A DNA stretch of 64,000 nucleotides, from the NCBI GenBank assembly GCA_027577595.1, contig JANBRJ010000011.1:209842-273841 (forward strand), in the 5' to 3' direction. This DNA is from Coemansia sp. RSA 487. Its lineage: Eukaryota; Kickxellomycota; Kickxellomycetes; Kickxellales; Kickxellaceae. Both the position numbers and the translations under genes were made by a program. The notes under the pieces were generated by a model. That model ran no database searches. It was given only the letters and a program-made list of their open reading frames with translations, and was not told the origin of the DNA. This document shows positions 12,668 through 40,614 of this stretch, one piece after another; the stretch's first letter is position 1, and each line of letters starts with the position of its first letter.

Positions 12668-12849
12668 TATGAATATTAGAATAGAAGCGTTATATGATGC
12701 ATGCGTAGTTTGTAAACAAGAAAAGCAGAAACGGCATTCAAGATAAACGAAGTGCATGGCGTGGAGTGGGCTGTATCAGCTGTTGGGCTAGCCCTCGCAC
12801 AATGGGCATTGCAAAGTTTGGGATAAAAAAGAACAAAAAAAGAAAAAAT

Positions 12850-12920
12850 GCTGTCACCTGGAATCGAACCAGGGTCGCCACGGCCACAACGTGGAGTACT
12901 AACCACTATACTATGACAGC
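12850..12920 (-). tRNA. tRNA-His (GTG), copy A
   Basis: A 71-base cloverleaf on the minus strand. The seven-pair acceptor is GCTGTCA/TGACAGC, the D arm contains AGTGGTTA, and the anticodon stem CCACG/CGTGG closes loop TTGTGGC (anticodon GTG). The T arm is CCTGG-TTCGATT-CCAGG. No intron and no encoded CCA. The usual extra 5' G of tRNA-His would be added after transcription. A T-run follows the 3' end. Identical to the copy at 32492-32562. Confidence 0.95.
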
Positions 12921-13180
12921 TTCGCTACTTTGGCTTGGGCTTTTAACCCAAATCATAACTCTAGATTCGGAAGAAAATGTTAATATAAAGCTCTCTTTGC
13001 ACAGTCGCTATTATTGTGTTCTCCAAACTTGAGCAGTAGCCGTTTTGCCTTTGCTTTGTCTTTGTTTCAGATGCCTATTTTTAAAATTAACCGTGTTTGG
13101 TTGACGTGTCTATCGTATACCTATCTAAATGTATTTCTTATTTTGTATACAGTGGAATTACTAAAAAGAATAGAGAGATG

Positions 13181-13846
13181 CTACCATTGATCCTGCTGTG
13201 GAGAAAGAGGCACAATTGCTGACCCTCTTCTGCCATGTCCTTTCTTGCGTCTGGTAATTTGAGATGCAGAGTAAGCATCTCCTAGTTTCATTAGCGGATG
13301 CGAAACCACCACCCACTGCTTGCCGAGTATTTTTGCTCTTCCAGTGCGACGACCATCGGTATGTCTCACAAAGCCATAGTCTGCGATTCCCTTGGCAATA
13401 ATGCTGTCGCTTCTAGCCGTGTGCCCGTGTGCCTGCATAGCCGCAAGAAGCTTCTGCGGGTCAGAGTACCGGATAGCGTTTCCTTCGCGGTTCCACATGA
13501 CCCAATCGCTGTTTGCCGGATCGCTTGCAATGCGGTGAAGGCTAAATGGAAATACTGCCTTTTTATCCATTCCACTCGGCTCCGACAACCCCCTTCCAAA
13601 GAGTGCTTTGTCGCTGGTGTTACTACCTGCCAGGAACAAATCCGACTGAGCAACTGACGGAACCATGTCAGACATTCCGAGAAGAGGCAGCTGCGATTTC
13701 GGCTGGAGCTGAGTAGACGATGAGAGAGAAGGAAGCGATTCCAAAAGGGTTTTAGGCGCTTCGTTAAAGCATTGCTGGTTCTGGTTCATGTCTGGCGACT
13801 GCAGCAAAAGGCTTAGAAAATCAAAGTCAACAGAAAAAGTGGACAT
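13181..13846 (-). CDS. Divergent HSF-type DNA-binding protein, copy A
   Basis: A 221-residue protein whose residues 98-190 fit the heat-shock-factor winged-helix pattern. FPFSLHRIASDP takes the place of helix 1, WVMWNREGNAIRYSDPQKL the strand and wing-proximal part, and an ADYGFVRHTDGRR segment the end of the recognition helix. A KQWVVVSHPLMKLG segment corresponds to the closing 'W.F.H..F.RG' block. The usual SFVRQLN signature is replaced by DSIIAKGIADYG, so this is a distant family member. No coiled-coil trimerisation region follows, only a short basic tail (RRKKGHGRR). The first 95 residues are Ser/Gln/Leu-rich and may be an activation region. Asn76 here is Asp in copy B. The HSF call is by pattern, not search. 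Confidence 0.6.
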   Translation of the reverse strand: MSTFSVDFDFLSLLLQSPDMNQNQQCFNEAPKTLLESLPSLSSSTQLQPKSQLPLLGMSDMVPSVAQSDLFLAGSNTSDKALFGRGLSEPSGMDKKAVFPFSLHRIASDPANSDWVMWNREGNAIRYSDPQKLLAAMQAHGHTARSDSIIAKGIADYGFVRHTDGRRTGRAKILGKQWVVVSHPLMKLGDAYSASQITRRKKGHGRRGSAIVPLSPQQDQW

Positions 13847-15458
13847 TGTCGCGAGAATTCCAAAGGCAAGAATAAGAATGCTGGCTGGTATTTTGACAGA
13901 CGAGCGTGGATTGAGAAAGAAATACAGTCATGTTTTATACGTGAGCCATTCACCAGACCGTTTTATTCTGGCGCTTGAATGAGCATCTCTGGGCACCGTG
14001 TAAGGGGTACCATTCAGGAACAAGCTCTTATTTTGTTCAAGAAAGCGGTTGATCTTGGCGCTAGTCTTGAACAAAGCGTTTGATTTGCAGTGGCCCCGAT
14101 CCTTCCAAGTCTGGCGTATTCCGAGCTCTGGGTGCAAAAGCGCGTCGCTTGCTACATACCGCGAACCCGCCAGGCATGCTGGCCGGCTCTTAAAGAGCGT
14201 AGCTGATTCGTTTTTGGACCCTTTAATTTACGCATGCTGTTCCATTGTTAGAATCGTTTCTGAGGCTGGACCATTGTCCCTGTATAAAAGCAAGTGGCCC
14301 AGAAACCTGAAAACCTGTTTATCGTCGTCCTCCTGAGCCGTGGAACAAACAGTTTTCTTGAAACAAGGAACAATGTGTTTTGTGACCCATGGAAAGCGCG
14401 TCGTTTTGCTTTAGACGCACATGCTTGTCGCTCCTTGTTTTGCAAAGTACCGAAAACACATGTGGTGCTGTGTTCTAGGCGGAAAACATTGGAAAGCTAC
14501 TACTTTTTCACATGGACACTGCAAACATGCATCACTCATTTTCTGCTTAGAGCCTTCTGTGGGCTTGTAATGTATTCTCCAACTTTTTTATCTTTGCCTG
14601 AAAGATACGCGTTATTTGATATAGTATCAATTCCAAAAACCTTGGTACATGTTGGATAAGAGACATAAAATATTGAAACGCTTACTCGCCAACATTCGTC
14701 ATTTATGGAAAGCGTCATTTACCTGATCCGGAAGATAGTTGTTGGGTGGTATATCTAACAGATCTCTTGCAAACATAAAATCCAGTAAATTAGGCTTCTT
14801 GTTTATCTAGAGCTGTGTTTTTGCGCATGGTCGTATCGGATATATGTCGTTGTTGGGACGATAAACAATAAACCAGCAACATTCTATAGTCCACTCAACA
14901 CAAAGTGTTTGTCTATTGAGGCTATCCATACTACAGACCCACACCTTATTCTTCGTCACAGCAAGCATATTATTGTGCTGAGAAATAAATTGGCTTGCGG
15001 GAAATATAAAGTGGATGAATGTCCTGTGATTATATTCAATTATAGTTGCGGCTCTTTATACCAGAGTACAAAACAATAAATAATTTACCAGACGCGCACA
15101 TTTAAAAAGTGCAATTGTGCTCCTGTGTGTGGGGAAAAGGATGACCAACAATAGATTGTGTCTTATTCTCCAGTGGGAACAGCAAAAAATCATGTAAATG
15201 AGGCTTCTGTTCCTGCGTGACATAAGGACATGTTTTGTTGTTAAAAATATCTGCAGGACAAGCCGCTTGTGACAATTTCGGCACCAATTTTAAAATTTTT
15301 TGCGACTTTGATGTATAAAACAAAACGAGTCTGGCGTGCTCTGTAGTACAAAAGAATAGGGCAATTTCTGCTGCTGCTTTTCACAACGACCACTTTAACA
15401 TTTGCTCTTTATCAATTTGTATATTCCCTTTTATTTTGCATTGATAAGCTTATTCAGA
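13847..15458. other. Spacer upstream of HSF-like copy A
   Basis: The first ~940 bases belong to the duplicated cassette and hold the probable HSF-like promoter. A plus-facing TATAAAAG lies at 14283-14290 with no long ATG-initiated frame behind it. A 69-codon minus-strand open frame (13928-14137) is preserved in both copies but not recognisable. From about 14790 the sequence is unique, AT-rich, and without a gene until 15459. Confidence 0.4.
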
Positions 15459-16304
15459 ATGGGATGCTGGTCAAACAGACAAAACTCTGCGCAGAATACG
15501 GCTACCAAGTATGACAACTACAGGAACTGGCATATTAAATGTAGATTGCACTTGTTTGACGCCCGTCGTGTTGGTACGGCCCGAATATTTGGTACTGGGA
15601 CGCTTCTTACCATTAGGGCACTCCTTTTCGCATATACACTTGGTGTGTGGATTTTCACAATTGTTTATGACGCAGAGCATGGGAATATGAAAGGTCATTT
15701 TGTTTATTTCACTTATCTCAGCTACACCGGCGTTCTTGCCTATCTGGCCTCCTCTTTGGTACATACAGTGCAGCACTGGCGACATGGTGCACCTTCATCT
15801 TTTACATTGATGCCAAAGACCCTGCAGCTGCTACACTGGTTCCTGTACGAGTCGGTTGTTTTGTATGCGGTAGTTGTGACAGCTATGTTCTGGTCCTTAA
15901 TATACAGCTCAGCCGACTACTCAACAACAGAGCTACGATGGTCAACAGCATCTGTCCACGCAACAAACACTATCTGTGTTGTTGTTGACACAGTAATTGG
16001 CTCCATGGTCCTTTCTCCACACTGGTCGCATCCGCTGTTACTTTGCATTATTTTTGCACTGTACCTGGCGTTGACATACATAAACTATGCGGTAAACGGC
16101 TGGTTCGTTTATACCTTTCTTGACTACAAAAAGCACAAATCAATGGAGGCAGCGATTATTTTTGGTCTTTTAGCCATATTTATCGTTGTATATTACGTTA
16201 TCTTTGCTCTTCAGCTACTCTTGGATCGATTGCTTCCGCCAAAGTTTGAAGCCAAACTTGCTTCAGCGGATGATGAAAATATGCTTTTTTCAGACAAGAA
16301 TTAA
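15459..16304 (+). CDS. Six-TM membrane protein, FAR-17a/AIG1 or rolling-stone-like
   Basis: A 281-residue integral membrane protein. Six hydrophobic spans are readable, beginning with LLTIRALLFAYTLGVWIF and ending with IIFGLLAIFIVVYYVIFALQ. The spacing and the segment SVHATNTICVVVDTVIGS ... HPLLLCIIFALYLALTYI ... NGWFVYTFLDY resemble the 'HxxN...D...H...Y...G.W.YPFLD' layout of FAR-17a/AIG1 hydrolases and rolling-stone proteins. AIG1-type enzymes hydrolyse fatty-acid esters of hydroxy fatty acids, and their catalytic Thr and His are membrane-embedded. I did not establish which residues are equivalent here. The start is the ATG at 15459; the frame upstream has no other ATG. Confidence 0.55.
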   Translation: MGCWSNRQNSAQNTATKYDNYRNWHIKCRLHLFDARRVGTARIFGTGTLLTIRALLFAYTLGVWIFTIVYDAEHGNMKGHFVYFTYLSYTGVLAYLASSLVHTVQHWRHGAPSSFTLMPKTLQLLHWFLYESVVLYAVVVTAMFWSLIYSSADYSTTELRWSTASVHATNTICVVVDTVIGSMVLSPHWSHPLLLCIIFALYLALTYINYAVNGWFVYTFLDYKKHKSMEAAIIFGLLAIFIVVYYVIFALQLLLDRLLPPKFEAKLASADDENMLFSDKN

Positions 16305-16387
16305 AGAGCCACAACGGTAACGATGTTTCTTTGCATACTACATTTCCATATAATCACAATAAAGCAAAGTCTTTTTATTAATACAAA

Positions 16388-17032
16388 CTACGCAGAAACA
16401 CCAACAGGTAGAGCCAGAAATGCGGTGTTACGCCCTTCCTCTGAAAGGGCATTGAATGTGCTGCTGGCGTATCGGGTATTCGCAAGCTCCACGTTCAAAC
16501 CGATTGATGTCAAGTACTTTTTCGCATTCGTAGAAAGCGGCGAGATCTGTGCACCGCCTCCAACGACAATAATCTCGGGCTTTGGCGTGACAATATCAAG
16601 AACAGCCAGAGCCTTTGGATCAAGTAAAAGCAGCGGGTTCACAGTTTTGCCACTTGAATCTGGTGTGGGTGGCGGTATCTTTAACGTAAACGCTTCGTTG
16701 TTCACAATTAGCAAGGGTCCATATGCCGTCTTTCCGTTACTCAAACGAAACCCAGTTGGCAGGACCTTGGTTATGTGGACCATGTTTTGGTCGACTTGGA
16801 ACATGTTTGCTATACCTGCATCCAGCAGGGGTTCCTTCATATCGTATTTAAGTCTGTCGCCTCTCTTTTCTGGCGTTTTGTCGCTGGTATAAAGCCGGAC
16901 AGGCGTCCTTCTGTAGTGCTCCGTTTGTGGAAGCAGACTACCGACTGTTGTGGCAGCTCTGGCAGTTGTTGAGCGTGCAGATGCGTTACACAGCACCCTT
17001 CCGCAGACCAATGTTCTTGTAATTCCAATCAT
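16388..17032 (-). CDS. NDUFAF3-like mitochondrial complex I assembly factor
   Basis: DUF498/NDUFAF3 family protein (214 residues), in animals a factor for early assembly of respiratory complex I. The N-terminus (MIGITRTLVCGRVLCNASARS) is Arg-rich without acidic residues, as in a mitochondrial presequence. The diagnostic C-terminal fold reads KPEIIVVGGGAQISPLS ... YLTSIGLNVELANTRYA ... STFNALSEEGRNTAFLALP. This matches the family's 'PEILVIGTG', 'GI.VE...T..A..T.N.L..EGR.V..AL.P' pattern. The start at 17032 is the only ATG giving the presequence. Its divergent neighbour LCP5 starts 327 bases away, suggesting a shared promoter. Presence of the factor implies this fungus keeps a proton-pumping complex I. 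Confidence 0.82.
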   Translation of the reverse strand: MIGITRTLVCGRVLCNASARSTTARAATTVGSLLPQTEHYRRTPVRLYTSDKTPEKRGDRLKYDMKEPLLDAGIANMFQVDQNMVHITKVLPTGFRLSNGKTAYGPLLIVNNEAFTLKIPPPTPDSSGKTVNPLLLLDPKALAVLDIVTPKPEIIVVGGGAQISPLSTNAKKYLTSIGLNVELANTRYASSTFNALSEEGRNTAFLALPVGVSA

Positions 17033-17358
17033 TCGCAGGACAATTTTTACAATAGTATAAACATAAATAAAAGCTGGTAAAGAAAAAAACGATTTCAGGG
17101 AGTGTGTGAGTGAAAAAAGCACGATGACCACCGAACCTTGAGCAAGTGATATAAATATGATCTTTCATCGGCCGTGATCCTAAAATCACCATTGTTTAAT
17201 TAACCATTTTTTGATGCTCTAAAATTTTCGTCATTTTTTTCTTGATCCGCTTTTGTTTCTTTTCCCTTGCGTTTGCTCAGTAAAACACTTTTATACAGGA
17301 ATACGCTGTCTCTATTTTTAATTATTGTAGCACCTTTTCAGAAAGAGAGAGGAACGAT
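17033..17358. other. Divergent promoter region, NDUFAF3 / LCP5
   Basis: About 326 bases between two divergent ATGs. AT-rich with T-runs near 17230-17260; no separate gene seen. Confidence 0.4.
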
Positions 17359-18498
17359 ATGGTTAGCAGCGAACTCGCCACAGCAGTCGATAAAAGGCTG
17401 AAAACAATTACCACACAGGCAAACCAAATTCGCGATATCGTGGAAAAACTACGGGAGCGTGTCGAGGATGGGGAACTAGCCACGGGAAGCGGGATCAGCT
17501 TTCTCGAGGTGAAGCACCACACAATGCTGTCCTACATAACGCATCTTGCGTATCTGACGCTTCTAAAACTCCACGGCAAGCAGATCGAGGACCATCCAGC
17601 CATTATGAACCTGATTGAAGATAGGACAGTTCTGGAGCGAATGCGGCCACTGGAGCAGCGACTCAAGTATCAGATTGATAAGATGCTACGCAACACGATT
17701 ATTTCGACAGACGAAGAAGCCCAACAGAGGCAGAGACGGCAAGAGGGCACAGAGCAGCTGGCAACAACCGACGACCCAGAGAAAGCTACCATTGCCGATA
17801 CCAGCGCGAAACTTGCTGCAGTTATGCTTGGCGAGGACACGCTGGCCGATCCAACAGCATTCAAACCGAATCCTGGGAGCCTTGCTACAGATATCCGCGA
17901 GGAGGACGAGATGGCTATCGAGAGCGGGCTGTACAGGGCGCCGAGACAAATGCCTGTTCATTACGAGGAGGATGGCAACAGTGCTGCAAAGAAGGAAAAG
18001 GAAGAGCAGCGGATGATGCAGCGTGCAGCACGCTCACGGCTGGTTCGCGATCTCATGACAGAATACGACGACCGCCCAGAGATGACCACTGCTTCAGGGA
18101 ACCCGTCTGTGGGCCTTGTGGACGGAAAACTCGAGCGGCTGGCAGAAGACAGGGCACGTTATGAGGAGGAGAACTTTAAACGCATATCGGTTGGCAAGAA
18201 GGAGCGCAAGGGCCTACGTTCCAAATTTATGGAGCTCGAGGACGAGTTTGGCCATCTGAATGACTTTGCCGGTCTGGCAGGCTTGCAAAAATCAACTGTC
18301 ACATCCAACGGGAAGACCGAGATCCTCGATCGCCTGAAAAAGAAGCGCGACAACGAGAGCATGGCAGACAAGGTCAATCGTAGGAGAAAGGGAGGCAATC
18401 GCGACAGCGATGATGAGGTCTTTGGATTTCACTCGATGCACAGTAGCAAGAAAGGCAAGTTCGACGTGGCCAAGAAACACGTAAAGAAAAGGCGTTAG
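17359..18498 (+). CDS. LCP5: Neuroguidin/Lcp5 (Sas10/Utp3/C1D family)
   Basis: A 379-residue member of the Sas10/Utp3/C1D family, most like yeast Lcp5 and animal neuroguidin, a component of the small-subunit processome in pre-18S rRNA processing. The N-terminal helical domain (about 1-120) includes GISFLEVKHHTMLSYITHLAYL and RPLEQRLKYQIDKMLR. The latter is the family's 'LR.IEKKLKYQIDKL' block. The middle is acidic and disordered. The C-terminus has VGKKERKGLRSKFMELEDEF, GHLNDFAGL and a Lys/Arg-rich tail typical of nucleolar proteins. The ATG is at 17359. Convergent with the NSUN gene, stops 17 bases apart. Confidence 0.85.
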   Translation: MVSSELATAVDKRLKTITTQANQIRDIVEKLRERVEDGELATGSGISFLEVKHHTMLSYITHLAYLTLLKLHGKQIEDHPAIMNLIEDRTVLERMRPLEQRLKYQIDKMLRNTIISTDEEAQQRQRRQEGTEQLATTDDPEKATIADTSAKLAAVMLGEDTLADPTAFKPNPGSLATDIREEDEMAIESGLYRAPRQMPVHYEEDGNSAAKKEKEEQRMMQRAARSRLVRDLMTEYDDRPEMTTASGNPSVGLVDGKLERLAEDRARYEEENFKRISVGKKERKGLRSKFMELEDEFGHLNDFAGLAGLQKSTVTSNGKTEILDRLKKKRDNESMADKVNRRRKGGNRDSDDEVFGFHSMHSSKKGKFDVAKKHVKKRR

Positions 18499-18515
18499 TT
18501 TTTGATCCATTTCTT

Positions 18516-19838
18516 TTATTGTTCAATACACGGATATCCAAGTGGAACCAGATGCTCGATGCGATTAGACAAGTCGGAACCATGCTTTAACTTTCTGATG
18601 CGTGCAACAAACATCCCTGATGAGTTTGAGACCGTTGGATCAAGCCTGAATGCATGTGCCATTCGACCAAACAAGTGCTTTTCATTCACTAGGTTATGAC
18701 TGGTCCATTCTGAATCGTTTTTGGGCATCCATATAGGCGACATGGTGACTGAAGAGCCCTCAAGCAAAGGCGATGGCTCGACACAAGCTTCATTTTCGGA
18801 ATGTCTGCTCAGAAAACCGCCAAGCACATATTCGTTCTGGTATCGAGAGAGACTGCATGTGCTGTACACCAGGATCCCGCCAGGTTTAAGAAGGCGCCAT
18901 CCATTTTCCAGCAGTTTTGTCTGCAAGATAGGCACAGATGTCGATCTGTTGTCATTGATAACACAGGTATCCAGTTGCTCCCATCCCCAGCGCTCATATT
19001 TGTGTACATGAGCCAGTGATCCGTCATGTGTGCACTCTGCGTCTACCAGAACACGATCGTACAGATCAGTTCCATTGCATGCGTACGCGCTGCTTAGTAG
19101 CTTGGTTGCAAACCATGGCTGCCCTTTGCTTTCGCGCTGCTTCCGCCAGGCCTTACCTTGCAGCTCACCGCTGGCGCCAGCAGAGTTTTTGATACTCTTG
19201 GGATCCCACCAGCGGTCTTGCGGTGCTTTACGATCAAAGGCGGTTCCATCGTCCAGAAACAGTCGAATGAAGGCTTTGTCGCTTCCAGCATGCTTTTTTA
19301 CCAGACTACGGCAGGTAGCTGCACGATGAGCCGAGATGTCAACGCCAGTCACAGAGCCCTTGACACTTGGCTCGGATTCATTTGTACCGCATGCGTCGTT
19401 GTTTAGCATATCCGCTAACAAAAGAAGCTTGGCCCCTGGTGCGCAGCACAGATCGAGAACATTGTCGCCAGGAGCTACAGAAAGAGCAAATACTGCAATT
19501 CCAGAGCTCACATCCATGCCAACAATATCTCCTGAATTATACGCGCGCAGCTGCGAAAGCTTGACTGTCGAATCGGCAATCTCCAGAAACCCAGGAATGC
19601 CAGCAACAGGATGGACCTTGCACCCAGCATCGGCGCTGATATTCCGGACAATAACCTCTAGCTCCTCGCTGCAACGTTGTCTGTTCCGTATAATGCGCAC
19701 ATAGCGTGGTAGCTTATCGAACACATCGTATACCTGAGGATCAATGTGGTTATCTTGCAAGAACGCAAGAAATGAGTCTGATAATTTTGATGAAAGCCTC
19801 GGAGCTTCTAAAGCTTCGTTGCTCTCCTGAACAGCCAT
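18516..19838 (-). CDS. NSUN/RsmB-type RNA (cytosine-5) methyltransferase
   Basis: A 440-residue SAM-dependent RNA m5C methyltransferase. Motif I VLDLCCAPGAKLLLLADML, motif II VTGVDISAHR, motif III LFLDDGTAF, motif IV YDRVLVDAECTHDGS and motif VI GGILVYSTCSLSRYQNE are all visible. The motif VI Cys (TCS) is the usual nucleophile and the motif IV Cys the usual release residue. Here motif IV reads DAECT rather than DAPCS, keeping the Cys. Which NSUN subgroup it belongs to, and whether the target is tRNA or rRNA, I cannot say. The start is the ATG at 19838 (MAVQESNEALEAPR). Codons further upstream run through a (TA)n repeat and lack a plausible ATG. Confidence 0.8.
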   Translation of the reverse strand: MAVQESNEALEAPRLSSKLSDSFLAFLQDNHIDPQVYDVFDKLPRYVRIIRNRQRCSEELEVIVRNISADAGCKVHPVAGIPGFLEIADSTVKLSQLRAYNSGDIVGMDVSSGIAVFALSVAPGDNVLDLCCAPGAKLLLLADMLNNDACGTNESEPSVKGSVTGVDISAHRAATCRSLVKKHAGSDKAFIRLFLDDGTAFDRKAPQDRWWDPKSIKNSAGASGELQGKAWRKQRESKGQPWFATKLLSSAYACNGTDLYDRVLVDAECTHDGSLAHVHKYERWGWEQLDTCVINDNRSTSVPILQTKLLENGWRLLKPGGILVYSTCSLSRYQNEYVLGGFLSRHSENEACVEPSPLLEGSSVTMSPIWMPKNDSEWTSHNLVNEKHLFGRMAHAFRLDPTVSNSSGMFVARIRKLKHGSDLSNRIEHLVPLGYPCIEQ

Positions 19839-20158
19839 CTGCAGGGAACAGCCGTCCTTAAATATCCTCTGTATATATATATATATATATGCACAACAGA
19901 TAACTAGATGCGTATGGAGAAATGTGTAAGGGTCAACAATCGCAGCCCCAAATTGGTCTATAACTTGTGCTGATTTGATCGGGCTACATATCCAACTGAT
20001 TATGGTCAAAGGGCATCGTTTCTCTCAAGCAACAGCAAAAAAATATTATCTGTGAATGAAAATGGAAGCAGAAAAAAGTAGATGTGCCTTTGCTTTTCCA
20101 ATTTACGTTCCTAATTCACATATCTTTTTGTTGTTTTGTTTCTATCGTGCTTTTAGAA
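19839..20158. other. Divergent promoter region, NSUN / Sel1 protein
   Basis: About 320 bases between two divergent starts, containing the (TA)n tract at 19872-19890. No gene is visible. The T-rich stretch ending in TTTTAG just before the 20159 ATG could be a 5'-UTR intron acceptor. Confidence 0.4.
19872..19890. repeat. (TA)n microsatellite
   Basis: An uninterrupted TA dinucleotide run just upstream of the NSUN start codon, in the short divergent promoter. Likely length-variable. Confidence 0.85.
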
Positions 20159-21427
20159 ATGTATTTACAGCCGACAAAGAACGGAGCCAAAGGAGTTCGA
20201 CTTCATAGTGTGCCACAGAAGGCAACGGCCTGTAAACGGCTGAACGTAACAAAGCAATGTTTTGTGTATGCGTCCATTCATTCGAGTGCTGTAGCAAATG
20301 GACAACCTGCCACTGCGGAGCTAAAGAGCAAGTTGCTAGAGATCGAACGGCTGCCGTTTCCAAAGTTCACAATAACCAATTCTGGCATGGCTGATCTTAT
20401 ACCCAACCCCAAACAGTTTGACAAGGACGTGCTGGGCTCGCGGCTCAGCATCACACCAATAGAGCTACGCAAGCTGGTCAACCAATTTGTCGAGACGAAC
20501 AGAGGGAGCTCCAGTATTGCAGAGAATATGGAGATCTGGCGCCGAGACGTACTGGTTGCTTTTCGTGGCAATTTCTCAGAAATCACACTTGCAGCAAGCA
20601 TGTTTGCAAAAACATCGCGGAACAAGACGCTGACTTGTGCATTATACAAGGTTGCCGCAGAGGAAGGGTATCAGAATGCGGCTTACAACTATGCGCTTCT
20701 TGTTGGCACCAAAGAACTCAAGGTCACCGGTGGCAACGCGCTTAGTAAAAAGATTATCGAAGAGCTGGCTCAGCTGGACCACATTCCTAGCATGCTCGCG
20801 CTGTCAGATATAAAGATCAGAAGCAAGAATTCCAACGATATGAAGGAAGCCGTAAGGATCTTGGAGAAGGCCGCGGAGCTCAAGAATGGACATGCGTACT
20901 ACAGACTGGGACACATCTACTCCAATGGGCTCCTTGTAAAGCATGACTATAAAAAAGCCATAGAGTGGTATGGTAAGCTGGAAGAACTCGGCTCACCTGA
21001 CGGTTATTACTTGATAGGGTGTATGCTTTTGGAAGGCAAGGGGTCGGCGGATGGTAAGCCCGATCTAAAGGCAGCATTCGAGAGTTTTGAAAAGGCGGCA
21101 GCAAAGGGAAGTGTAATTTCGCAGTACGAGCTCGGTATGCGATATACTGATGGGATAGATGTAGCAAAGGACACGGATCTCGGGCTAGAGTATCTGATAC
21201 TTGCAGCAGAGGGGGAAATGGTTATGGCGATGATCAAGTTGAGCATTCTTTATATGGAAGGAACTGACATACCAAAGAACTACAAGCAAGCACGCGAGTA
21301 TCTAGATAAAGCAACCAAATGCGCGGGTACGCACAAAGAGGTAAATGCTACTATTCAGAAAGTGCGAACAGAACTCGATAAGTTGGACAACGAGCCTAAA
21401 GATGAGTCACGGTGCATTGTCATGTAG
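20159..21427 (+). CDS. Sel1-repeat protein with C-terminal CaaX box
   Basis: A 422-residue protein with at least four to five Sel1-like (SLR) repeats from about residue 160 onward, e.g. GHAYYRLGHIYSNGLLVKHD, DGYYLIGCMLLEGKG and SQYELGMRYTDGIDVAKD. SLR proteins are scaffolds. The last four residues are CIVM, a CaaX prenylation signal; Met at X predicts farnesylation. Sel1 repeats plus a CaaX box are known from the Chs4/Skt5 chitin-synthase regulators, but those are usually longer, so the link is only suggestive. The N-terminus (first ~45 residues) is basic and hydroxylated, which also looks like a mitochondrial presequence, so localisation is ambiguous. The ATG is at 20159. Confidence 0.7.
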   Translation: MYLQPTKNGAKGVRLHSVPQKATACKRLNVTKQCFVYASIHSSAVANGQPATAELKSKLLEIERLPFPKFTITNSGMADLIPNPKQFDKDVLGSRLSITPIELRKLVNQFVETNRGSSSIAENMEIWRRDVLVAFRGNFSEITLAASMFAKTSRNKTLTCALYKVAAEEGYQNAAYNYALLVGTKELKVTGGNALSKKIIEELAQLDHIPSMLALSDIKIRSKNSNDMKEAVRILEKAAELKNGHAYYRLGHIYSNGLLVKHDYKKAIEWYGKLEELGSPDGYYLIGCMLLEGKGSADGKPDLKAAFESFEKAAAKGSVISQYELGMRYTDGIDVAKDTDLGLEYLILAAEGEMVMAMIKLSILYMEGTDIPKNYKQAREYLDKATKCAGTHKEVNATIQKVRTELDKLDNEPKDESRCIVM

Positions 21428-21615
21428 GTCTGTATGGCGGTGGGGCTAGAAAGTAGGTATTTCTCTTGTAGCAACTGCTGCCCATGTGGCATATTTGATA
21501 TTTAAATATATAAAATACTTGATTAGCTGAATATTAAAATAGTCAAATGTTTATCCAGCTAAAGCAAAACTGCTATAGCATGAATCTTTTACTTTTGTAA
21601 CTTTTCTTTTTGGAA

Positions 21616-23208: not shown

Positions 23209-23534
23209 GTTGACGAAAAGCCAAAGTCCGCATTATAGAATTCCAAACTTGCTGCGGAAGATGCAACGAAAATTCCAAGCTTTCTTACTTCAAAGCCATT
23301 GTGGTGGAATAGAGAAATGCAGGATGAGGGCGTTATTACTATTTTTTGAAAAATAAACTCTGATTTTTTTGTGGTGCAACAAATGGTTGCATGAATGAAA
23401 ACCACCAAAGAACTATCACATTGTGTACTTTTTTCTTCTCCACTCTTCGTTTTTTTGCTATTTTTATTTATATTTCTATAACCGAACAATTTCAGCAATT
23501 CCAACGCTCCTGGAAGAAATACACTAAATTGACA
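23209..23534. other. Spacer upstream of DM9 protein 1
   Basis: About 326 bases between the S28 peptidase stop and the DM9 ATG on the same strand. AT-rich with T-runs; presumably terminator plus promoter. Confidence 0.4.
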
Positions 23535-24248
23535 ATGTTTGGAAGCAGCGACGACATCCAAAGACACAGCGGTCAGGCACCACCACCTCCAGGATACACC
23601 CCACAGCAGCAGCAACAGCAACAGCAACATGGCGGACAGGCTCCACCTCCGCCCCCATGCGGCTTCAATACCGAAAACCAACAGCCGCCTAACCAACATG
23701 GCCCATCGCCGCCACAAGCAGGAAACTCAAACAGCGGCCCGGGCTACGGAATTAACTATACTGGGCGGTCCGGCGCTGACGGCGGAAATAAGGCAGGGCT
23801 GCAATGGGTAAGCGCATCAAACGGACATATCCCACCAAACGCAGTGCAGGGAGGAATTGAGAAAGACGGCACGCCGCTTTTCGTGGCACGAGCAATATAC
23901 AAGGGCGGTCTGCATCCAGGCAAAGCAGGACAGCATCTGGAGAATGGCGGATGCAACATTGGGTTTGGACACAAGGAGATCGCAGTGTCGGAATACCAGA
24001 TCCTGTGCGGCGATGCCAGCAAACTCCGATGGGTGCGGCAAGAAGGCCCGCTTATCATCCAAGGGTTTGTGCCATACCCAGCGGGACACGAGGAGAGTGG
24101 CGAGCCGCTTTATATCGCCAAGACGCTTTACGACGGTTCGCAGCAGCTCGGCAAGTGCGCGCCGCATATCAAGAAAGGCATGTCGTTTCCATATGGCCAT
24201 AAGGAAAAGACAACAGACAACTACATGGTTCTTGCTCAAGCAGACTAA
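23535..24248 (+). CDS. DM9-repeat (DUF3421) protein 1
   Basis: A 237-residue protein with a Pro/Gln-rich N-terminal third (polyQ from a CAG/CAA run) and two DM9 units covering about residues 95-237. Landmarks are WVSASNGHIPPNAVQGG, PLFVARAIYKGGLHPGKAG, IGFGHKEIAVSEYQILCG, then PLYIAKTLYDGSQQLGKC and FPYGHKE. DM9 domains occur in insects, molluscs and some fungi; a mollusc DM9 protein binds mannose. There is no signal peptide, so it is probably cytosolic or unconventionally exported. Strongly similar to the protein at 34487-35257 over the whole DM9 part; the N-terminal parts differ. Start at 23535. Confidence 0.85.
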   Translation: MFGSSDDIQRHSGQAPPPPGYTPQQQQQQQQHGGQAPPPPPCGFNTENQQPPNQHGPSPPQAGNSNSGPGYGINYTGRSGADGGNKAGLQWVSASNGHIPPNAVQGGIEKDGTPLFVARAIYKGGLHPGKAGQHLENGGCNIGFGHKEIAVSEYQILCGDASKLRWVRQEGPLIIQGFVPYPAGHEESGEPLYIAKTLYDGSQQLGKCAPHIKKGMSFPYGHKEKTTDNYMVLAQAD

Positions 24249-26237: not shown

Positions 26238-28223
26238 ATGGGCAGAAAGAAGATCAAGATCCAGACGATCAAGGATGAGCGCAACCGCCAGGTGACTTTT
26301 CTGAAGCGCAAGGCGGGCCTGCTCAAAAAGGCGTACGAGCTCAGCGTTCTGTGCGATTGTGAGATAGCAGTCATCATCTTCAGCTCACAGAACAAACTCG
26401 TACAGTATGCGTCGACCAACATGGACAAGGTGCTGATGCGCTACACCGACTACGGCGAGCCCAACGAGAGCCTGACAAACGTCCAATGCTCGGCCATGTA
26501 CGGCGACGGCGAGAATGACGACGACGACATGTACCGGGGTGCCCCTGCCGCCATCGACAGGCATATGCAGGTTGCCGATGCCGGCTACGACTTCACGTCG
26601 CCGCTGAACCCCGGCGCCGCCATCCATTCGCCGCCCGACCTCCACTACAGGCAGGCGTACGCCGATGCCGCAAACAACTCCGCCGCTGCCGCCGCCGCCG
26701 CCGCAGTCGCTGCCGCCTCATCTGTTCCCCTTGTCGGTGCTTCTCCTATGTCTGTGGCCTCGCAGTCGTATATGCACCATGACCAGCAGCAGAGCCACTT
26801 GGGCGCTGGGTACTCTCCCAGCATTGATGGTATCGATTCGGCCGTAAACGCCTCGTACTACCCTGCCTCCATGTCCTATGCAAACCAAGCGTCTGGCAGC
26901 TCCATTTATGGCCACCAGCAACGGGCCATTCCCCAGTCATCACTTGCTCAGTCCATATCTGCATATCCGTACGGCTTGGCACAACCGAAAGCTTCATCGC
27001 CACTGGGCTTGTCGCAATCGCAGATCCAGCAACAGCAGTCGCAGCAGCAGCTTGCTTATACCCAGCCGCTGATGCGCACATACCCGTACCAGTCGCTTGG
27101 CAACTATTCGACGTCGCAGCAACAACAATCTCAACAAGCTCAGAGCGGCGTTGTCCTTCCTGGGTCTGATAGCCTTTCGCAAACAGGCTCCGTAATGTAC
27201 CAGGTCGGCCAGCCGTACCAGCCTGGTCAGGTTCTTGGTCGCTCTATGGATTCTTATCGCTCTCGGATATCTACCCCAACCTCTGCTTCAGGAACTTCAT
27301 CTGCCACCCCTCAGTACATGGTCTATCGTATGCCAGACGGCACCACTCAAACAATCGACCCCAACCAGCAGCTCCAGTTGCCACAAAATAGCCAACAGCA
27401 GCTCCAGACGATTGCCGAGGACGAAGACCAGAACCAAGACCAAGAGCAGAGCCAGAATAATGCAGACCAGGACGACCAGCAACAGCAGCAACCTAGTGCC
27501 AGCAATTCTGCGCGGAAAGAGGATAGTGCTGACAACGAAGATCTCTTCAACAGTTCGCCCAGCAGACAGCAATCGAACGACCCGCCGGATCTACGGGTTG
27601 AGATCCCAAACCAGCAGAGCAAGAGCAACAAGGGCTCAAGCTCCTCTTCTGATCCACGGCGATCTGCAACCAGCTCCAGCAGACACGATTCAACACCCGA
27701 ATCGAGTGCTGCATCAGCAAGCAGATCCGCATCGGGGGCACATGCTCGTGGTCGAAGGTTCCCGCTTGCTGTCAACACCACTGCGCGTGCAGCGGCGGCA
27801 GCTGGCGGCGGTGTTGCTGCCGCAGGCAACGAGCCCGGTCCGCAGACGGCCATGCTTATCGAGTACGTTCAGAGTCTACCGTCGCCATCGACGTTCCAGC
27901 CTATAATGTACCAGCAGAACGAAGGCTTCAGCCCCATGGAGTTTGGAACAACGCCTATTGTTGGGCCACAAAGCACTAGCGCCTTCCAATGGCCAATTCC
28001 TACGGCTCCTTCATCCGGCGCATCGACACCATCTGTAACAGCACACTCGAACCAGCATGGCGCTACAAGTAACGGGGGCAGCGCTGTAGCAAGCGTACCT
28101 TCGCGGGCTCCGCACCAACCTTCGCCGTTAAAACGCAACATCGCAAAGACAACAGCACCGTTGACTCCATCTGAGCCTTTGCCTCAACACAACGGGTCGC
28201 CAAAGAAGCGCACACGAACGTAG
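26238..28223 (+). CDS. MEF2-type MADS-box transcription factor (Rlm1-like)
   Basis: A 661-residue transcription factor. Residues 1-60 are a complete MADS box ([40 protein letters not shown]). It continues directly into a MEF2 extension, [19 protein letters not shown], which distinguishes MEF2/Rlm1 from SRF/Mcm1 types. The remainder is disordered: polyAla, long Gln-rich stretches, an acidic [11 protein letters not shown] segment and Ser-rich C-terminal regions. Yeast Rlm1 is the target of the cell-wall-integrity MAP kinase. SP/TP sites are present here, but a docking motif was not verified. The ATG at 26238 is the standard MADS start. The gene sits isolated between two large spacers, as regulators often do. 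Confidence 0.93.
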
Positions 28224-29389
28224 ATGGAGGAACTTATCTGCAGAGAAAATTGCAAGTTGTTAGGCTGGTCCCTTGACCTGTCTTTTTTTCTCAGTGAACT
28301 TTTTCAAAGCTTCTACGTTAGCCTATCTTTTTGACAGTATAGCCTTGCGATGCCGTGTATTAATATCCGTTTATTTATTTACTTATACGTTTGTTCTGAA
28401 ATGCTGTTCAACTGGTCTTTAGTTTTTTTCGTTTAATATACTCGAAACAATTTATTTTTAAATCACTAGTTGTTGATTGTATGTACAGTTTGCTTATAGT
28501 TTATAAATGGAAGGTGGCACTAGCGGAATATAGTACAATTAAGGTTGGATCTTGAGAAATTCCTTGATTTATATAATTACCTAATAGTAGCGTACAGCAA
28601 GATAAACAAGTCATTTATAACGAATTAGCAAAACCAAGTTATTTGCAACCACATGTGTACTTTGCATATTTTCTCTTCGCGCAATAGTTATAAATACTCA
28701 GAATGTATGGTATGGTTTAATGGTGTTATCCACATAAACTTACCCAAGAGAGGAAACCCCTCCAAAAAAAGGAGAAAGCTTCCCTGCTCCTTGAAGTTTT
28801 TCAGAGTGGTGCATGAAAGTTGTCATCATAGCATTTATTATTGCCGGTTATTCCAGCATTATGGATTGTACATACCTTGACATTTCACGTAATGAGAGAC
28901 GAATTCGGTGCTAAATACAAATTACTCTGTTACAGCAACAAGCAAATAGAAACGAATCACTAGGTGTACCAAACTGCATCTATACCTTTAAAAATATTTA
29001 CAACAAAAAAATCATAAAGAAAAGAAAAAAGCAGCAGACATCGCGTTTCAACAGATGGCAATAAAAGGGTGCTCTTTTCCTGCTTTTTCTAGAGAAAAAT
29101 TTTCAAGCGCGTGATTATAATAATCCCAATCAAGAGCCACTTTTATCTACACTTTTTGTGACTGCTTGTGGCTTTGGTTCTGAGCTTTAGAAAACAACAC
29201 ATTTACAGCGTAAGCCAAGCAATTGAAAGACCTGCCATTTTATAATCGTGTTTTATATTGTCTGCGGGACAATACACAAAAACTATAGAAAAAGAGGGGG
29301 TGTGAGAATCCAGAATAGAAAAAAAGAAACAGAAAAGAGAGGTTTATAGGGCAAGACACGCTTGTCCATAGCAAGCAAAACATCTATGC
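28224..29389. other. Gene-free AT-rich spacer
   Basis: About 1.17 kb between the convergent 3' ends of the MADS and ATP1 genes. AT-rich; no coding frame or RNA gene that I can support. Confidence 0.4.
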
Positions 29390-31340
29390 TTAGATGAAGG
29401 ACTTGGTAAAGTCAGCAGTGATTTCACGGAGCTTCTTCTCGGTGGCCTCGTCGATCTGACCCTTGGAGCTGATGGACTGGAGGATGTCGCTGTGGTTGGA
29501 GCGGACGAAGGGAAGGAACTTTTGCTCGAACTCGACGATGCGCGCGGTTGGCACCTTGTCAAGGAAGCCGTTGACACCGGCAAAGATGATGACGACCTGG
29601 TCCTCGACGGCCAGAGGCGAGTACTGAGGCTGTTTAAGCATCTCAGTGAGACGGGCACCACGGTTCAGCAGGAACTGGGTCGAGGCATCGAGATCGGAAC
29701 CGAACTGGGCAAAGGCAGCAACTTCACGGTACTGGGCAAGGAAGAGCTTGAGCGAACCAGCAACCTGCTTCATGGCCTTGGTCTGGGCAGCCGAACCGAC
29801 ACGGGACACAGAGATACCGACGTTAATGGCAGGGCGCACACCCTTGAAGAACAGCTCGGCCTCAAGGAACACCTGTCCGTCAGTAATCGAAATGACGTTT
29901 GTAGGAATGTAGGCAGACACATCACCACCCTGGGTTTCAATGATGGGCAGGGCAGTCAGCGAGCCAGAGCCAAAGTCCTTGTTCATCTTGGCAGCGCGCT
30001 CGAGCAGACGTGAGTGAAGGTAGAAGACATCACCAGGGTATGCCTCACGACCAGGGGGACGACGCAGCAGAAGCGACATCTGACGGTAGGCAACGGCCTG
30101 CTTGGACAGATCGTCGTAGATGATCAGGGCGTGCTTGCCGTTGTCACGGAAGTACTCACCCATGGCGCAGCCAGAGTAAGGAGCCAGGTACTGCAGAGGA
30201 GCAGCCTCAGATGCGGTGGCAGCAACAACAACAGAGTACTTCAGGGCGTCGTTCTCCTCGAGGGTCTGGACGAACTGAGCAACAGTAGAGCGCTTCTGAC
30301 CGATGGCGACGTAGACACAGTAGAGCTTCTTGGTCTCATCGTTGCCATCATTCCAGCGCTTCTGGTTGAGGATGGTGTCAAGCGTGACCGAGGTCTTACC
30401 GGTCTGACGATCACCAATGATCAGCTCACGCTGGCCACGACCAATAGGAAGCATAGAGTCGATCGACTTGGTTCCGGTCTGCATGGGCTCGTGAACGGAC
30501 TGACGGGGGATGATGCCGGGCGCCTTGACCATAGCACGGGAGCGCTGGCTGGTCTTGATGGGGCCCTTGCCATCGATGGGGTTTCCAAGAGCATCGACAA
30601 CACGACCGAGCAGAGCCTGGCCGACGGGGACGTCGACAATGGAGCCGGTACGCTTGACAGTGTCGCCCTCCTTGATCAGACGATCGTTACCAAAGACGAC
30701 AATACCGACGTTGTCAGCCTCGAGGTTAAGAGCCATACCCTGGACACCGCTCGAGAACTCCACCATCTCCTCGGCCTGGACGTTCTTCAGACCATAGACG
30801 CGAGCAATACCGTCACCGACAGACAGCACGCGGCCGGTCTCCTGGAGGTCGACCTTGTTGGTAGCGCCGAGGATGCGCTCCTCGAGGATCGAGGTAACCT
30901 CGGACGCGGCGGGCTTGGCGCCGGCCTTGGCGGGAACGGAGGTCGAGAGAGCACGGACTGCGGCAGGAGCAGCAGCACGGGTCTACATGGAGTTTGAACA
31001 ACACAACAAGACAAGTGTTCCGAAAGGAAAAAAGTTTAATCAAAATAGCTTTTACTAGATAAGCACAGGCGAGCCTCAGCTGAATTTGCGTTGCTTTTTT
31101 CTTATCAATCACTAGCAGATTTGCTTCGCGCAACAAGTTCAATCAGCATCGACTGCCGTTAGATTCAGCTTCAGAGAGCGCAAAATAAAACGCAGGCAAT
31201 CCACACGGGGAAATGTAAACAAGGGCTGGTCCAAATCAAGTGTAGAATCTCTCGACAGCCAACACAAATTGAATACGTACCATGGCGCGGGCAACAGGCA
31301 CGCGGGTCGCAGAGGCGAGACGAGACACGTTCTTCAACAT
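29390..31340 (-). CDS. ATP1: Mitochondrial F1 ATP synthase subunit alpha
   Basis: F1-ATPase alpha subunit of oxidative phosphorylation, 550 residues from two exons: 31340-31281 and 30982-29390. Exon 1 codes just 20 residues ([20 protein letters not shown]), a mitochondrial presequence. The 298-base intron (GTACGT donor, ATGTAG acceptor) falls between codons. The mature part shows [25 protein letters not shown], Walker [11 protein letters not shown], the [11 protein letters not shown] region and [18 protein letters not shown], ending KSFI. This is the standard length and motif set. Codon use is strongly biased toward C-ending codons, which explains long antisense open frames here and fits high expression. 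Confidence 0.96.
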
Positions 31341-31872
31341 TGTGATAAATTGGCAAACTATAATATGTGCCTATAAAAATACTAGTCCAAAAACTGTGAA
31401 GAAAAGGGAAGGAGCAAAGTGAAGAAAAGAGCAAAAACGATAGATACAGCAGAGCGGAATGGTTTCAAGAAGAGTGCTTTCCTTGCTGCGATAACGAAAA
31501 CCGCCTGCATTGAGCCGCTGTTTTCCAGCTTTTTCCTTAAGCTCTGACCAATTTTCTTTATCAGCAAAAGCAGTCAAATTTTTTGAGAAAAAAAAGCCGC
31601 ATGGAAAACTGCACACATTCCAGCCAACAGAATCAAGGCATCAGACCCACGAGCTGCGAGCTGCGAACCGCAAACAAAGCAAAATGGCTTGATTATATGC
31701 TGATTTGACTTGATTGTAGATAGAGATGATCAAGAATGAGTTGGATAATCAGCCTGCTGCTTTTTTGCAAAGCCATCTTTTTCTGGATTTGTTTTTTATC
31801 TGTTTTGCAAATTTCAACTGCAATTTGCTTCACTCGATTGACTTGGTATCTTTTAGTATATTATTAACGGAA
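31341..31872. other. Divergent promoter region, ATP1 / bL21m
   Basis: About 530 bases between the ATP1 and bL21m starts. An in-frame ATG at 31726 precedes bL21m, but its leader does not resemble a presequence, so I treat the region as spacer and 5' UTR. Confidence 0.4.
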
Positions 31873-32373
31873 ATGTCGTTTACAGCAATCTCACGCTCAC
31901 TCCTTGGGTGCAGGACCAAATCTCTCAGTGTCACAGAAGGACGTCGATTCATGTCACAAATGCAGACCCCCGCGACAAGCACGCCAATCAAGTGGTCTGC
32001 AAGCACTACAGAACTTGTTTCTCGGCTGCGCGACCAGCAAAAGTACTACGCAACAGTGGTTGTCAAAGGGCGCCCGTTCACTGTGACGCAAAACGACATT
32101 ATCATCATGGACCGCATCAAAGATCTCGAGCTAGGCGACTTGCTATCGCTGACGCAGATCACTGAGCTTGGATCGCGCGACTACACAATCAAGGGCCAGC
32201 CTTTTGTCGACCCGAGCCTTTTCAATATTAAAGCAACTGTCATTGAGCATCCAGACGGCAAACTTTTCACTGTTACGAAAAAGAAGCGGCGCACAGCGCA
32301 TCAAAAGGTGACCTACCACCGGAACCATTACACGATGCTACGGGTTTCTTCGATAAATGTCACAAAGATCTGA
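31873..32373 (+). CDS. Mitochondrial large-subunit ribosomal protein bL21m
   Basis: A 166-residue bL21 family protein of the mitochondrial 54S subunit (yeast Mrpl49). The first ~35 residues (MSFTAISRSLLGCRTKSLSV, then GRRFMS) form a basic presequence. The L21 fold follows: YYATVVVKGRPFTVTQNDIII, then RDYTIKGQPFVDPSLFNIKATVIEH. The closing KKKRRTAHQKVTYHRNHYTML matches the C-terminal L21 signature 'KRRK....K..GHRQ..T...I'. The ATG at 31873 gives the presequence; an earlier in-frame ATG at 31726 is less likely. Its neighbours on the right are the duplicated tRNA-His cassette. Confidence 0.87.
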   Translation: MSFTAISRSLLGCRTKSLSVTEGRRFMSQMQTPATSTPIKWSASTTELVSRLRDQQKYYATVVVKGRPFTVTQNDIIIMDRIKDLELGDLLSLTQITELGSRDYTIKGQPFVDPSLFNIKATVIEHPDGKLFTVTKKKRRTAHQKVTYHRNHYTMLRVSSINVTKI

Positions 32374-32491
32374 GTAGTAATATCAGTTAGCTATTCAAAT
32401 TTCAAAATAAAAATACAGTCTAATGAAGGAGCTTGCCACTCGCCATTGACAAATAAAAACATCGGTAAAGTACAAAAAATAAGGAAAAAGT

Positions 32492-32562
32492 GCTGTCACC
32501 TGGAATCGAACCAGGGTCGCCACGGCCACAACGTGGAGTACTAACCACTATACTATGACAGC
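32492..32562 (-). tRNA. tRNA-His (GTG), copy B
   Basis: Identical 71-base cloverleaf to the copy at 12850-12920: acceptor GCTGTCA/TGACAGC, anticodon loop TTGTGGC, T loop TTCGATT, no intron, no CCA. Flanked by the same downstream T-run. Confidence 0.95.
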
Positions 32563-32822
32563 TTCGCTATTCTGGCTTGGGCTTTTAACCCAAATCATAA
32601 CTCTAGATTCGGGAGAAAATGTTAATATAAAGCTCTCTTTGCACAGTCGCTATTATTGTGTTCTCCAAACTTGAGCAGTAGCCGTTTTGCCTTTGCTTTG
32701 TCTTTGTTTCAGATGCCTATTTTTAAAATTAACCGTGTTTGGTTGACGTGTCTATCGTATACCTATCTAAATGTATTTCTTATTTTGTATACAGTGGAAT
32801 TACTAAAAAGAATAGAGAGGTG

Positions 32823-33488
32823 CTACCATTGATCCTGCTGTGGAGAAAGAGGCACAATTGCTGACCCTCTTCTGCCATGTCCTTTCTTGCGTCTGGTAAT
32901 TTGAGATGCAGAGTAAGCATCTCCTAGTTTCATTAGCGGATGCGAAACCACCACCCACTGCTTGCCGAGTATTTTTGCTCTTCCAGTGCGACGACCATCG
33001 GTATGTCTCACAAAGCCATAGTCTGCGATTCCCTTGGCAATAATGCTGTCGCTTCTAGCCGTGTGCCCGTGTGCCTGCATAGCCGCAAGAAGCTTCTGCG
33101 GGTCAGAGTACCGGATAGCGTTTCCTTCGCGGTTCCACATGACCCAATCGCTGTTTGCCGGATCGCTTGCAATGCGGTGAAGGCTAAATGGAAATACTGC
33201 CTTTTTATCCATTCCACTCGGCTCCGACAACCCCCTTCCAAAGAGTGCTTTGTCGCTGGTGTCACTACCTGCCAGGAACAAATCCGACTGAGCAACTGAC
33301 GGAACCATGTCAGACATTCCGAGAAGAGGCAGCTGCGATTTCGGCTGGAGCTGAGTAGACGATGAGAGAGAAGGAAGCGATTCCAAAAGGGTTTTAGGCG
33401 CTTCGTTAAAGCATTGCTGGTTCTGGTTCATGTCTGGCGACTGCAGCAAAAGGCTTAGAAAATCAAAGTCAACAGAAAAAGTGGACAT
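32823..33488 (-). CDS. Divergent HSF-type DNA-binding protein, copy B
   Basis: A 221-residue near-identical copy of the protein at 13181-13846, differing at residue 76 (Asp instead of Asn). The HSF-like winged helix is at 98-190. It again lacks the SFVRQLN recognition signature and any oligomerisation region, and has the same basic tail. Both copies are intact open frames, and the single coding change in 666 bases suggests recent duplication or gene conversion. Upstream sequence is also duplicated for about 930 bases, so promoter control is probably shared. Confidence 0.6.
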   Translation of the reverse strand: MSTFSVDFDFLSLLLQSPDMNQNQQCFNEAPKTLLESLPSLSSSTQLQPKSQLPLLGMSDMVPSVAQSDLFLAGSDTSDKALFGRGLSEPSGMDKKAVFPFSLHRIASDPANSDWVMWNREGNAIRYSDPQKLLAAMQAHGHTARSDSIIAKGIADYGFVRHTDGRRTGRAKILGKQWVVVSHPLMKLGDAYSASQITRRKKGHGRRGSAIVPLSPQQDQW

Positions 33489-34486
33489 TGTCGCGAGAAT
33501 TCCAAAGGCAAGAATAAGAATGCTGGCTGGTATTTTGACAGACGAGCGTGGATTGAGAAAGAAATACAGTCATGTTTTATACGTGAGCCATTCACCAGAC
33601 CGTTTTATTCTGGCGCTTGAATGAGCATCTCTGGGCACCGTGTAAGGAGTACCATTCAGGAACAAGCTCTTATTTTGTTCAAGAAAGCGGTTGATCTTGG
33701 CGCTGGTCTTGAACAAAGCGTTTGATTTGCAGTGGCCCCGATCCTTCCAAGTCTGGCGTATTCCGAGCTCTGGGTGCAAAAGCGCGTCGCTTGCTACATA
33801 CCGCGAACCCGCCAGGCATGCTGGCCGGCTCTTAAAGAGCGTAGCTGATTCGTTTTTGGACCCTTTAATTTACGCATGCTGTTCCATTGTTAGAATCGTT
33901 TCTGAGGCTGGACCATTGTCCCTGTATAAAAGCAAGTGGCCCAGAAACCTGAAAACCTGTTTATCGTCGTCCTCCTGAGCCGTGGAACAAACAGTTTTCT
34001 TGAAACAAGGAACAATGTGTTTTGTGACCCATGGAAAGCGCGTCGTTTTGCTTTAGACGCACATGCTTGTCGCTCCTTGTTTTGCAAAGTACCGAAAACA
34101 CATGTAGTGCTGTGTTCTAGGCGGAAAATATTGGAAAGCTACTACTTTTTCACATGGACACTGCAAACATGCATCGCTCATCTTCTGCTTAGAGCCTTCT
34201 GTGGGCTTGTAATGTATTCTCCAACTTTTTTATCTTTGCCTGAAAGATACGCGTTATTTGATATAGTATCAATTCCAAAAACCTTGGTACATGTTGGATA
34301 AGAGACATAAAATATTGAAACGCTTACTCGCCAACATTTGCCATTTATGGAAAGCGTCATTTACCTGATCCGGAAGATAGTTATTGGGTGGTGTATCCAA
34401 CAGACCTCTTGCAAATATAAAGTTCAGAAAAATATATAATTTGGCAAATATGGAATAAAAAAATTGGATAAAAATAAAGGAAAGGC
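33489..34486. other. Spacer upstream of HSF-like copy B
   Basis: About 1 kb, nearly all inside the duplicated cassette. It preserves the plus-facing TATAAAAG (33925-33932) and the 69-codon minus-strand open frame seen in copy A. No recognisable gene. Confidence 0.4.
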
Positions 34487-40598: not shown

Positions 40599-40614
40599 AT
40601 GGTACATATCAACA

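Follow-up and report, generated by a model that had tools for sequence, protein, structure and literature searches.

In the genome of the fungus Coemansia sp. RSA 487, a histidine tRNA gene and a gene resembling those for heat-shock factors (HSF-like) are present twice within a short distance, and the two copies differ almost entirely by transitions. How did such a block come to be duplicated, and do its differences call for a special mutator? The answer we find probable is an ordinary dispersed segmental duplication, the middle of which has been homogenised by gene conversion, in a genome where substitutions lean towards transitions. The window, meaning the whole stretch of DNA that was analysed, covers the final 64 kb of contig C11 in an assembly of 17.8 Mb and 184 contigs.

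The duplicated block

The block is about 1.95 kb long, and its copies lie 19.6 kb apart in direct orientation. Read along the minus strand, each copy consists of about 940 bp of upstream DNA, a 221-aa frame, a spacer of about 260 bp and the tRNA-His gene, and it ends 7 bases past the tRNA. The features are the following:

12842 to 14785, minus strand: copy A of the block (upstream region, HSF-like gene, tRNA-His), separated from copy B by 21 transitions, with no indel
32484 to 34427, minus strand: copy B of the block, in the same orientation as copy A, at an offset of 19642
12849 to 12920, minus strand: tRNA-His (GTG) of copy A; 7 bases separate its 3' end from the left edge of the block
32491 to 32562, minus strand: tRNA-His (GTG) of copy B, identical to that of copy A (ARAGORN start 32490)
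13181 to 13846, minus strand: HSF-like gene of copy A, 221 aa, with Asn76
32823 to 33488, minus strand: HSF-like gene of copy B, 221 aa, with Asp76

Beyond the block, ungapped identity is 23 to 33 per 100 in four 100-base stretches. The two homologous copies thus have the sharp edges and unrelated flanks of a segmental duplication. Copy A has a protein-kinase gene on one side and, on the other, a gene whose product has a sub-threshold FAR-17a match; the neighbours of copy B are a gene for ribosomal L21 and one with DM9 repeats. A whole-genome DNA search in which the best candidates were scored (2 of 2) places the block sequence at these two sites and at no other. The DM9-repeat gene belongs to an inverted pair of paralogues in the window (23391 to 24248, plus strand, and 34487 to 35257, minus strand; 69% DNA identity over 446 bp), and one member of the pair directly adjoins copy B.

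The original prediction placed the duplicate segments at a constant offset of 19642 with no net indel, and an ungapped comparison bears this out. Between 12842–14786 and 32484–34428 there are 22 differences (21 transitions and one transversion) and no indel; from copy to copy, the transitions are A/G at 7 sites, T/C at 6, C/T at 5 and G/A at 3. A reading by eye had given 17 to 20 differences, all transitions. The full pairwise count for 12842–14785 is 21 transitions and no indel, so that the number was too low and the all-transition character holds for this interval only, as wider edges add transversions. A lone transversion had been noted past the homology edge; the one counted here, a T/A at 14786, sits outside 12842–14785, yet it is the final base of the interval as originally drawn and so falls within it. 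With edges at 12835–14792 the count becomes 22 transitions and 3 transversions, and the top-scoring BLAST alignment (12828–14792) has 25 mismatches and 1 gap. This means that "transitions only" depends on where the edge is cut, at 21:0 for the narrower interval and 22:3 for the wider, and the block edges were drawn while looking at the differences themselves.

The two genes

The tRNA-His genes are identical, as had been reported, with 0 differences in 72 bases, and a DNA search of the genome with the tRNA-His gene finds these two copies and no third. The HSF-type gene, also said to be intact, has an open 221-aa frame in both copies, with Asn76/Asp76 as the single difference. Copy against copy, its coding sequence carries 0 synonymous changes where 3.6 are expected (P about 0.027) and 1 nonsynonymous change where 7.4 are expected.

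The HSF-like protein (P0001) scores 18.2 bits against PF00447 (HSF_DNA-bind), below the curated cut-off of 22, and when compared alone with solved structures it has no match at E up to 1. Two of its paralogues (P0009 and P0010, on contigs C154 and C4) are above the Pfam HSF_DNA-bind cut-off. A profile built from the three proteins matches structure 5d5w, a "putative transcription factor," at 2.1e-6, and also HSF1, HSF2 and heat-shock-factor chains at 0.0055 to 0.078. P0001 likely carries a predicted HSF-like domain. A lasting association of the HSF-like gene with tRNA genes was considered and set aside as chance: one more case was found (L007, about 0.56 kb from a tRNA-Gly), and five of the six paralogue loci scanned are without a tRNA. 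The gene content of the genome points to a fungus; it includes, for example, a protein of the fungal Gti1/Pac2 family.

Clustering of the differences at the block edges

The differences are not spread evenly along the block, a feature that the original prediction overlooked. Three parts can be told apart:

12972 to 14463: middle of copy A, of low divergence, with 4 differences over 1492 bp (3 of these among its 826 non-coding bases)
32614 to 34105: low-divergence middle of copy B, at the offset of 19642
12842 to 12971: left margin of copy A, 4 differences in 130 bp
14464 to 14785: right margin of copy A, of high divergence, with 13 transitions over 322 bp

The margins together hold 17 differences in 452 bp, compared to the 4 of the middle, and 7 of the 13 transitions of the right margin fall within the 42 bases of 14741–14782. 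When the tRNA and the coding sequence are excluded, 3 of 20 differences lie in the middle and 17 in the 380 non-coding bases of the margins. These limits were set after seeing the data, and three tests of clustering are free of them. The 20 non-coding differences lie on average 179 bp from the nearest edge, where 410 would be expected (0 of 20000 permutations), 7 of them lie within 50 bp of an edge (p 0.0008), and the longest gap between successive ones, at 14064–14463, is 401 bases (p 0.006). That gap reaches to about 600 bp upstream of the HSF-like start codon. Divergence is therefore low in the middle and climbs towards the edges, non-coding DNA included.

It is because of these positions that we infer gene conversion. 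First, a segment of about 1.95 kb would have been duplicated to a dispersed site in direct orientation. Ectopic gene conversion would then have homogenised the middle, the HSF-like gene included, while the margins drifted, so that the middle of the block would represent the conversion core. Gene conversion shaping the copies was among the explanations first offered, and the edge clustering supports it indirectly. Part of the quietness of the middle could come from purifying selection on the HSF-like gene and the DNA upstream of it.

Selection could even do the whole work. In a simple young duplication that saw no conversion, the margins would be neutral and the middle would be kept quiet by purifying selection acting on the tRNA and on the HSF-like gene with its flanks. 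Both genes are intact and nonsynonymous change is well below expectation, as such a history would have it, and a middle this quiet could result from selection on the HSF-like gene and the flanks around it. However, the quiet zone extends into non-coding DNA (the middle has 3 differences in 826 such bases, the margins 17 in 380), the 400 bases without a difference run far upstream of the start codon, and synonymous changes, too, are absent where 3.6 are expected. We regard a history without conversion as unlikely, although it deserves to be kept in mind. Of course, duplication followed by conversion has its own loose end: 7 of 42 bases near the right edge have changed with no indel, which ordinary drift fits only loosely.

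The transition share against same-genome controls

That a duplicate of this kind normally carries some transversions, the premise of the original prediction, is right on average. At transition fractions of 0.73 to 0.83, about 3.6 to 5.7 transversions are expected among 21 differences, and 0 are observed. The comparison with other paralogous segments that it proposed finds these to be transition-rich as well, with K2P-corrected transition fractions of 0.71 to 0.90 depending on sequence class; this supports a transition-biased mutation process, the first explanation it had listed.

The first 40 loci, nearly all of them RVT_1 (LINE-like) loci, yield 412 alignments above 80% identity whose K2P transition fraction averages 0.82 (range 0.57–0.93), with the duplicated block left out, alignments shorter than 300 bases dropped, and those at or under 80% identity excluded from the mean. 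Polarised changes in 15 LINE copies, taken as five trios, include 1818 transitions out of 2189; these copies represent 15 of 30 RVT_1 loci, and the genome has 41 RVT_1 matches. In the families of the window, the LINE family stands at 533:119 transitions to transversions (K2P 0.84), low-copy non-coding paralogues at 353:146 (0.73) and the F-box-like gene family at 832:377 (0.71), and two other ORF stretches have fractions of 0.85 and 0.90. LINE pairs, here and in the other controls, are not independent of one another. For these window counts, alignments under 78% identity were dropped and 3921 doubly counted bases removed where loci overlap (L072 with L077, and L073 with L078).

Fisher tests of the block against three of these classes depend on the edges chosen:

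21:0, for 12842 to 14785: p 0.0018 against low-copy non-coding DNA, 0.036 against the window LINE family, 0.037 against the polarised LINE set
21:1, with base 14786 added: p 0.0077, 0.15 and 0.16, in the same order
22:3, for 12835 to 14792: p 0.070, 0.60 and 0.79, in the same order

The absence of transversions is low even for this genome and counts against our overall reading. It amounts to a mild excess, found in the trimmed core only, which stands out most against low-copy DNA. Among the controls, low-copy non-coding DNA arguably makes the fairest comparison, and it is also the least kind to the view that the genome is simply transition-biased. Transversion-free blocks of 21 substitutions do occur elsewhere, in 44 of 3448 overlapping blocks from hand-picked control pairs (14 named, 13 with usable alignments). 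All 44 come from LINE pairs; the small pair of tRNA-Lys flanks (28:10, 18 blocks) and the F-box pairs yield none. The three codon positions carry roughly equal shares of the differences in four LINE pairs, so the LINE transition bias is not made by selection on protein. On our reading no special mutator is needed: all differences would be transitions because substitutions in this genome mostly are and because there are only 21 of them.

One control segment of the window was followed along its length:

40534 to 45119: control segment, paired with an 88% paralogue (L071) on contig C3; 367 transitions to 130 transversions

Within this pair the transition share differs by sequence class. The LINE-side part has 135:19 and the F-box part with the non-coding flanks 198:104 (Fisher p 2e-7), a split in which the intervening 513-bp ORF (34:7) belongs to neither part and 43463–44173 is assigned to the LINE side without proof. 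The LINE-like part of the segment contains, at 44333–44494, 27 transitions in a row.

This contrast, along with the even spread of LINE changes over codon positions, favours a further idea, which is that recombination between repeats leaves or creates almost only transitions, for example via mismatch handling in heteroduplex DNA. On this view, transitions would make up a larger share of the changes in the block and in multi-copy LINE-like DNA than in low-copy DNA of comparable age. We give this idea little credence. Loss of mismatch or uracil repair was also considered as a cause of the bias and rejected, with 7 MutS_V matches (four of the 7 in open frames of 952 to 1378 aa) and 2 UDG matches present, going by predicted function.

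As it stands the block matters little, being a small, clean case of a duplicate kept alike in its middle, though it carries the only two tRNA-His genes that the DNA search found in the genome. If it is true that repeats exceed single-copy DNA in transitions with no RIP enzyme at work, this would be an undescribed mutational or mismatch-repair effect of recombination.

How the block may have been copied and altered

The duplication possibly arose by replication-based repair near a fork-stalling tRNA gene, as one of its edges lies at the tRNA-His 3' end. Yeast segmental duplications arise through replication-based repair (PMC2518615). Rearrangements and segmental duplications in yeast can be edged at tRNA genes (PMC2675101, PMC2518615), and the block resembles them in having one such edge; unlike them, it is a single case in another organism, with mechanism and breakpoint deduced from the sequence.

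A mobile element could also have carried the block, by tRNA-adjacent insertion or as a LINE-mediated retrocopy. The left edge only 7 bases from the tRNA 3' end, the abundance of LINE-like elements in the genome and the HSF paralogue about 0.56 kb from a tRNA-Gly would all suit such an origin. However, the best flank-to-flank match in one copy is an 8-base A-rich word at chance level (shuffle p 0.22), so no target-site duplication was found, and the window has no inverted repeats of at least 40 bases, both in agreement with the earlier statement that TIRs and a TSD were not seen. The HSF-like frame is the only ORF of at least 120 aa in the block, the genome search found two copies, and the tRNA is missing at five of six HSF-paralogue loci. 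With neither a target-site duplication nor an encoded enzyme nor further copies found, the mobile element is rejected as very improbable.

The weakest candidate is RIP-like, repeat-directed cytosine deamination as the source of the transitions in both copies, which the original prediction had raised and which we judge to have almost no chance of being right. It has in its favour that every difference is a transition and the sequence is duplicated, but the signature is lacking. At the 21 sites the base 3' of the pyrimidine is A in 8 cases, C in 6, T in 5 and G in 2, near the 6.6, 4.3, 6.0 and 4.1 expected for C in the same order, with no preference for CpA or CpG, and the A/T base is in copy A at 13 sites and in copy B at 8. 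The RIP index TA/AT is 0.80 and 0.81 in the copies (window 0.74) and the substrate index 1.31 and 1.32 (window 1.37), shifts that go slightly towards the RIP side of the window average but are small. Both transition types, T>C and C>T, outnumber their own transversions about fivefold in LINE copies; C-to-T is 1.66 times T-to-C per site, with a 1.5-fold CpG enrichment. A six-frame genome search ignoring introns found no intact RID/DIM-2/DNMT1-type methyltransferase, and the sole intact PF00145 protein that it found matches DNMT2, the tRNA C38 methyltransferase. A locus on contig C4 (L084) has a C5-methyltransferase C-terminal match (E 2.8e-8) with internal stops, overlapping a weak, sub-threshold BAH match. 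This broken fragment, possibly a decayed or intron-split DNMT1-class gene, speaks somewhat for RIP. The block is like RIP (reviewed in PMC13297926) in showing transitions in duplicated DNA, and unlike it in the lack of context preference, in the split of the A/T base between copies and in that no intact RID/DIM-2-type enzyme was found.

Segmental duplication followed by gene conversion also has its likenesses. Paralogues of Saccharomyces cerevisiae homogenised by gene conversion (PMC2728529) share with the block a very low synonymous divergence, and the near-identical middle and diverging margins of the block can be set beside them. The block differs in having two copies only, in that its conversion is deduced with no outgroup, and in that all of its differences are transitions. 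As for the spectrum, Zymoseptoria tritici has a Ts/Tv of 3.1 at 18 C (PMC8497519), a value bracketed by the Ts/Tv of about 2.5 to 5 among paralogues of this genome, although the latter comes from paralogues and not from mutation-accumulation lines. Schizosaccharomyces pombe, at 0.72 (PMC4704713), is a contrasting case.

Contig ends

Two further observations concern the ends of contigs. Three tRNA matches start at base 1 to 4 of a contig (C156, C87 and C85), and the assembly may break at tRNA genes. The best 30 of the 41 LINE-like (RVT_1) matches include 16 that are no more than 5 kb from a contig end, and 16 of 16 read inward. They are on contigs C51, C3, C49, C1 (both ends), C108, C152, C116, C99, C28, C92, C38, C100, C22, C81 and C32 (loci L011, L013, L015 to L018, L020 to L023, L026, L030, L031, L035, L036 and L039). 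A TTAGGG run of four was not found in the genome. These matches may belong to a chromosome-end-associated LINE family, or they may reflect assembly breaks at one side of the element. By their coordinates, those of the other 11 matches on C61, C70, C81 and C107 agree with the inward pattern, and two RVT_1 pieces on C71 (4482–5188) read outward.
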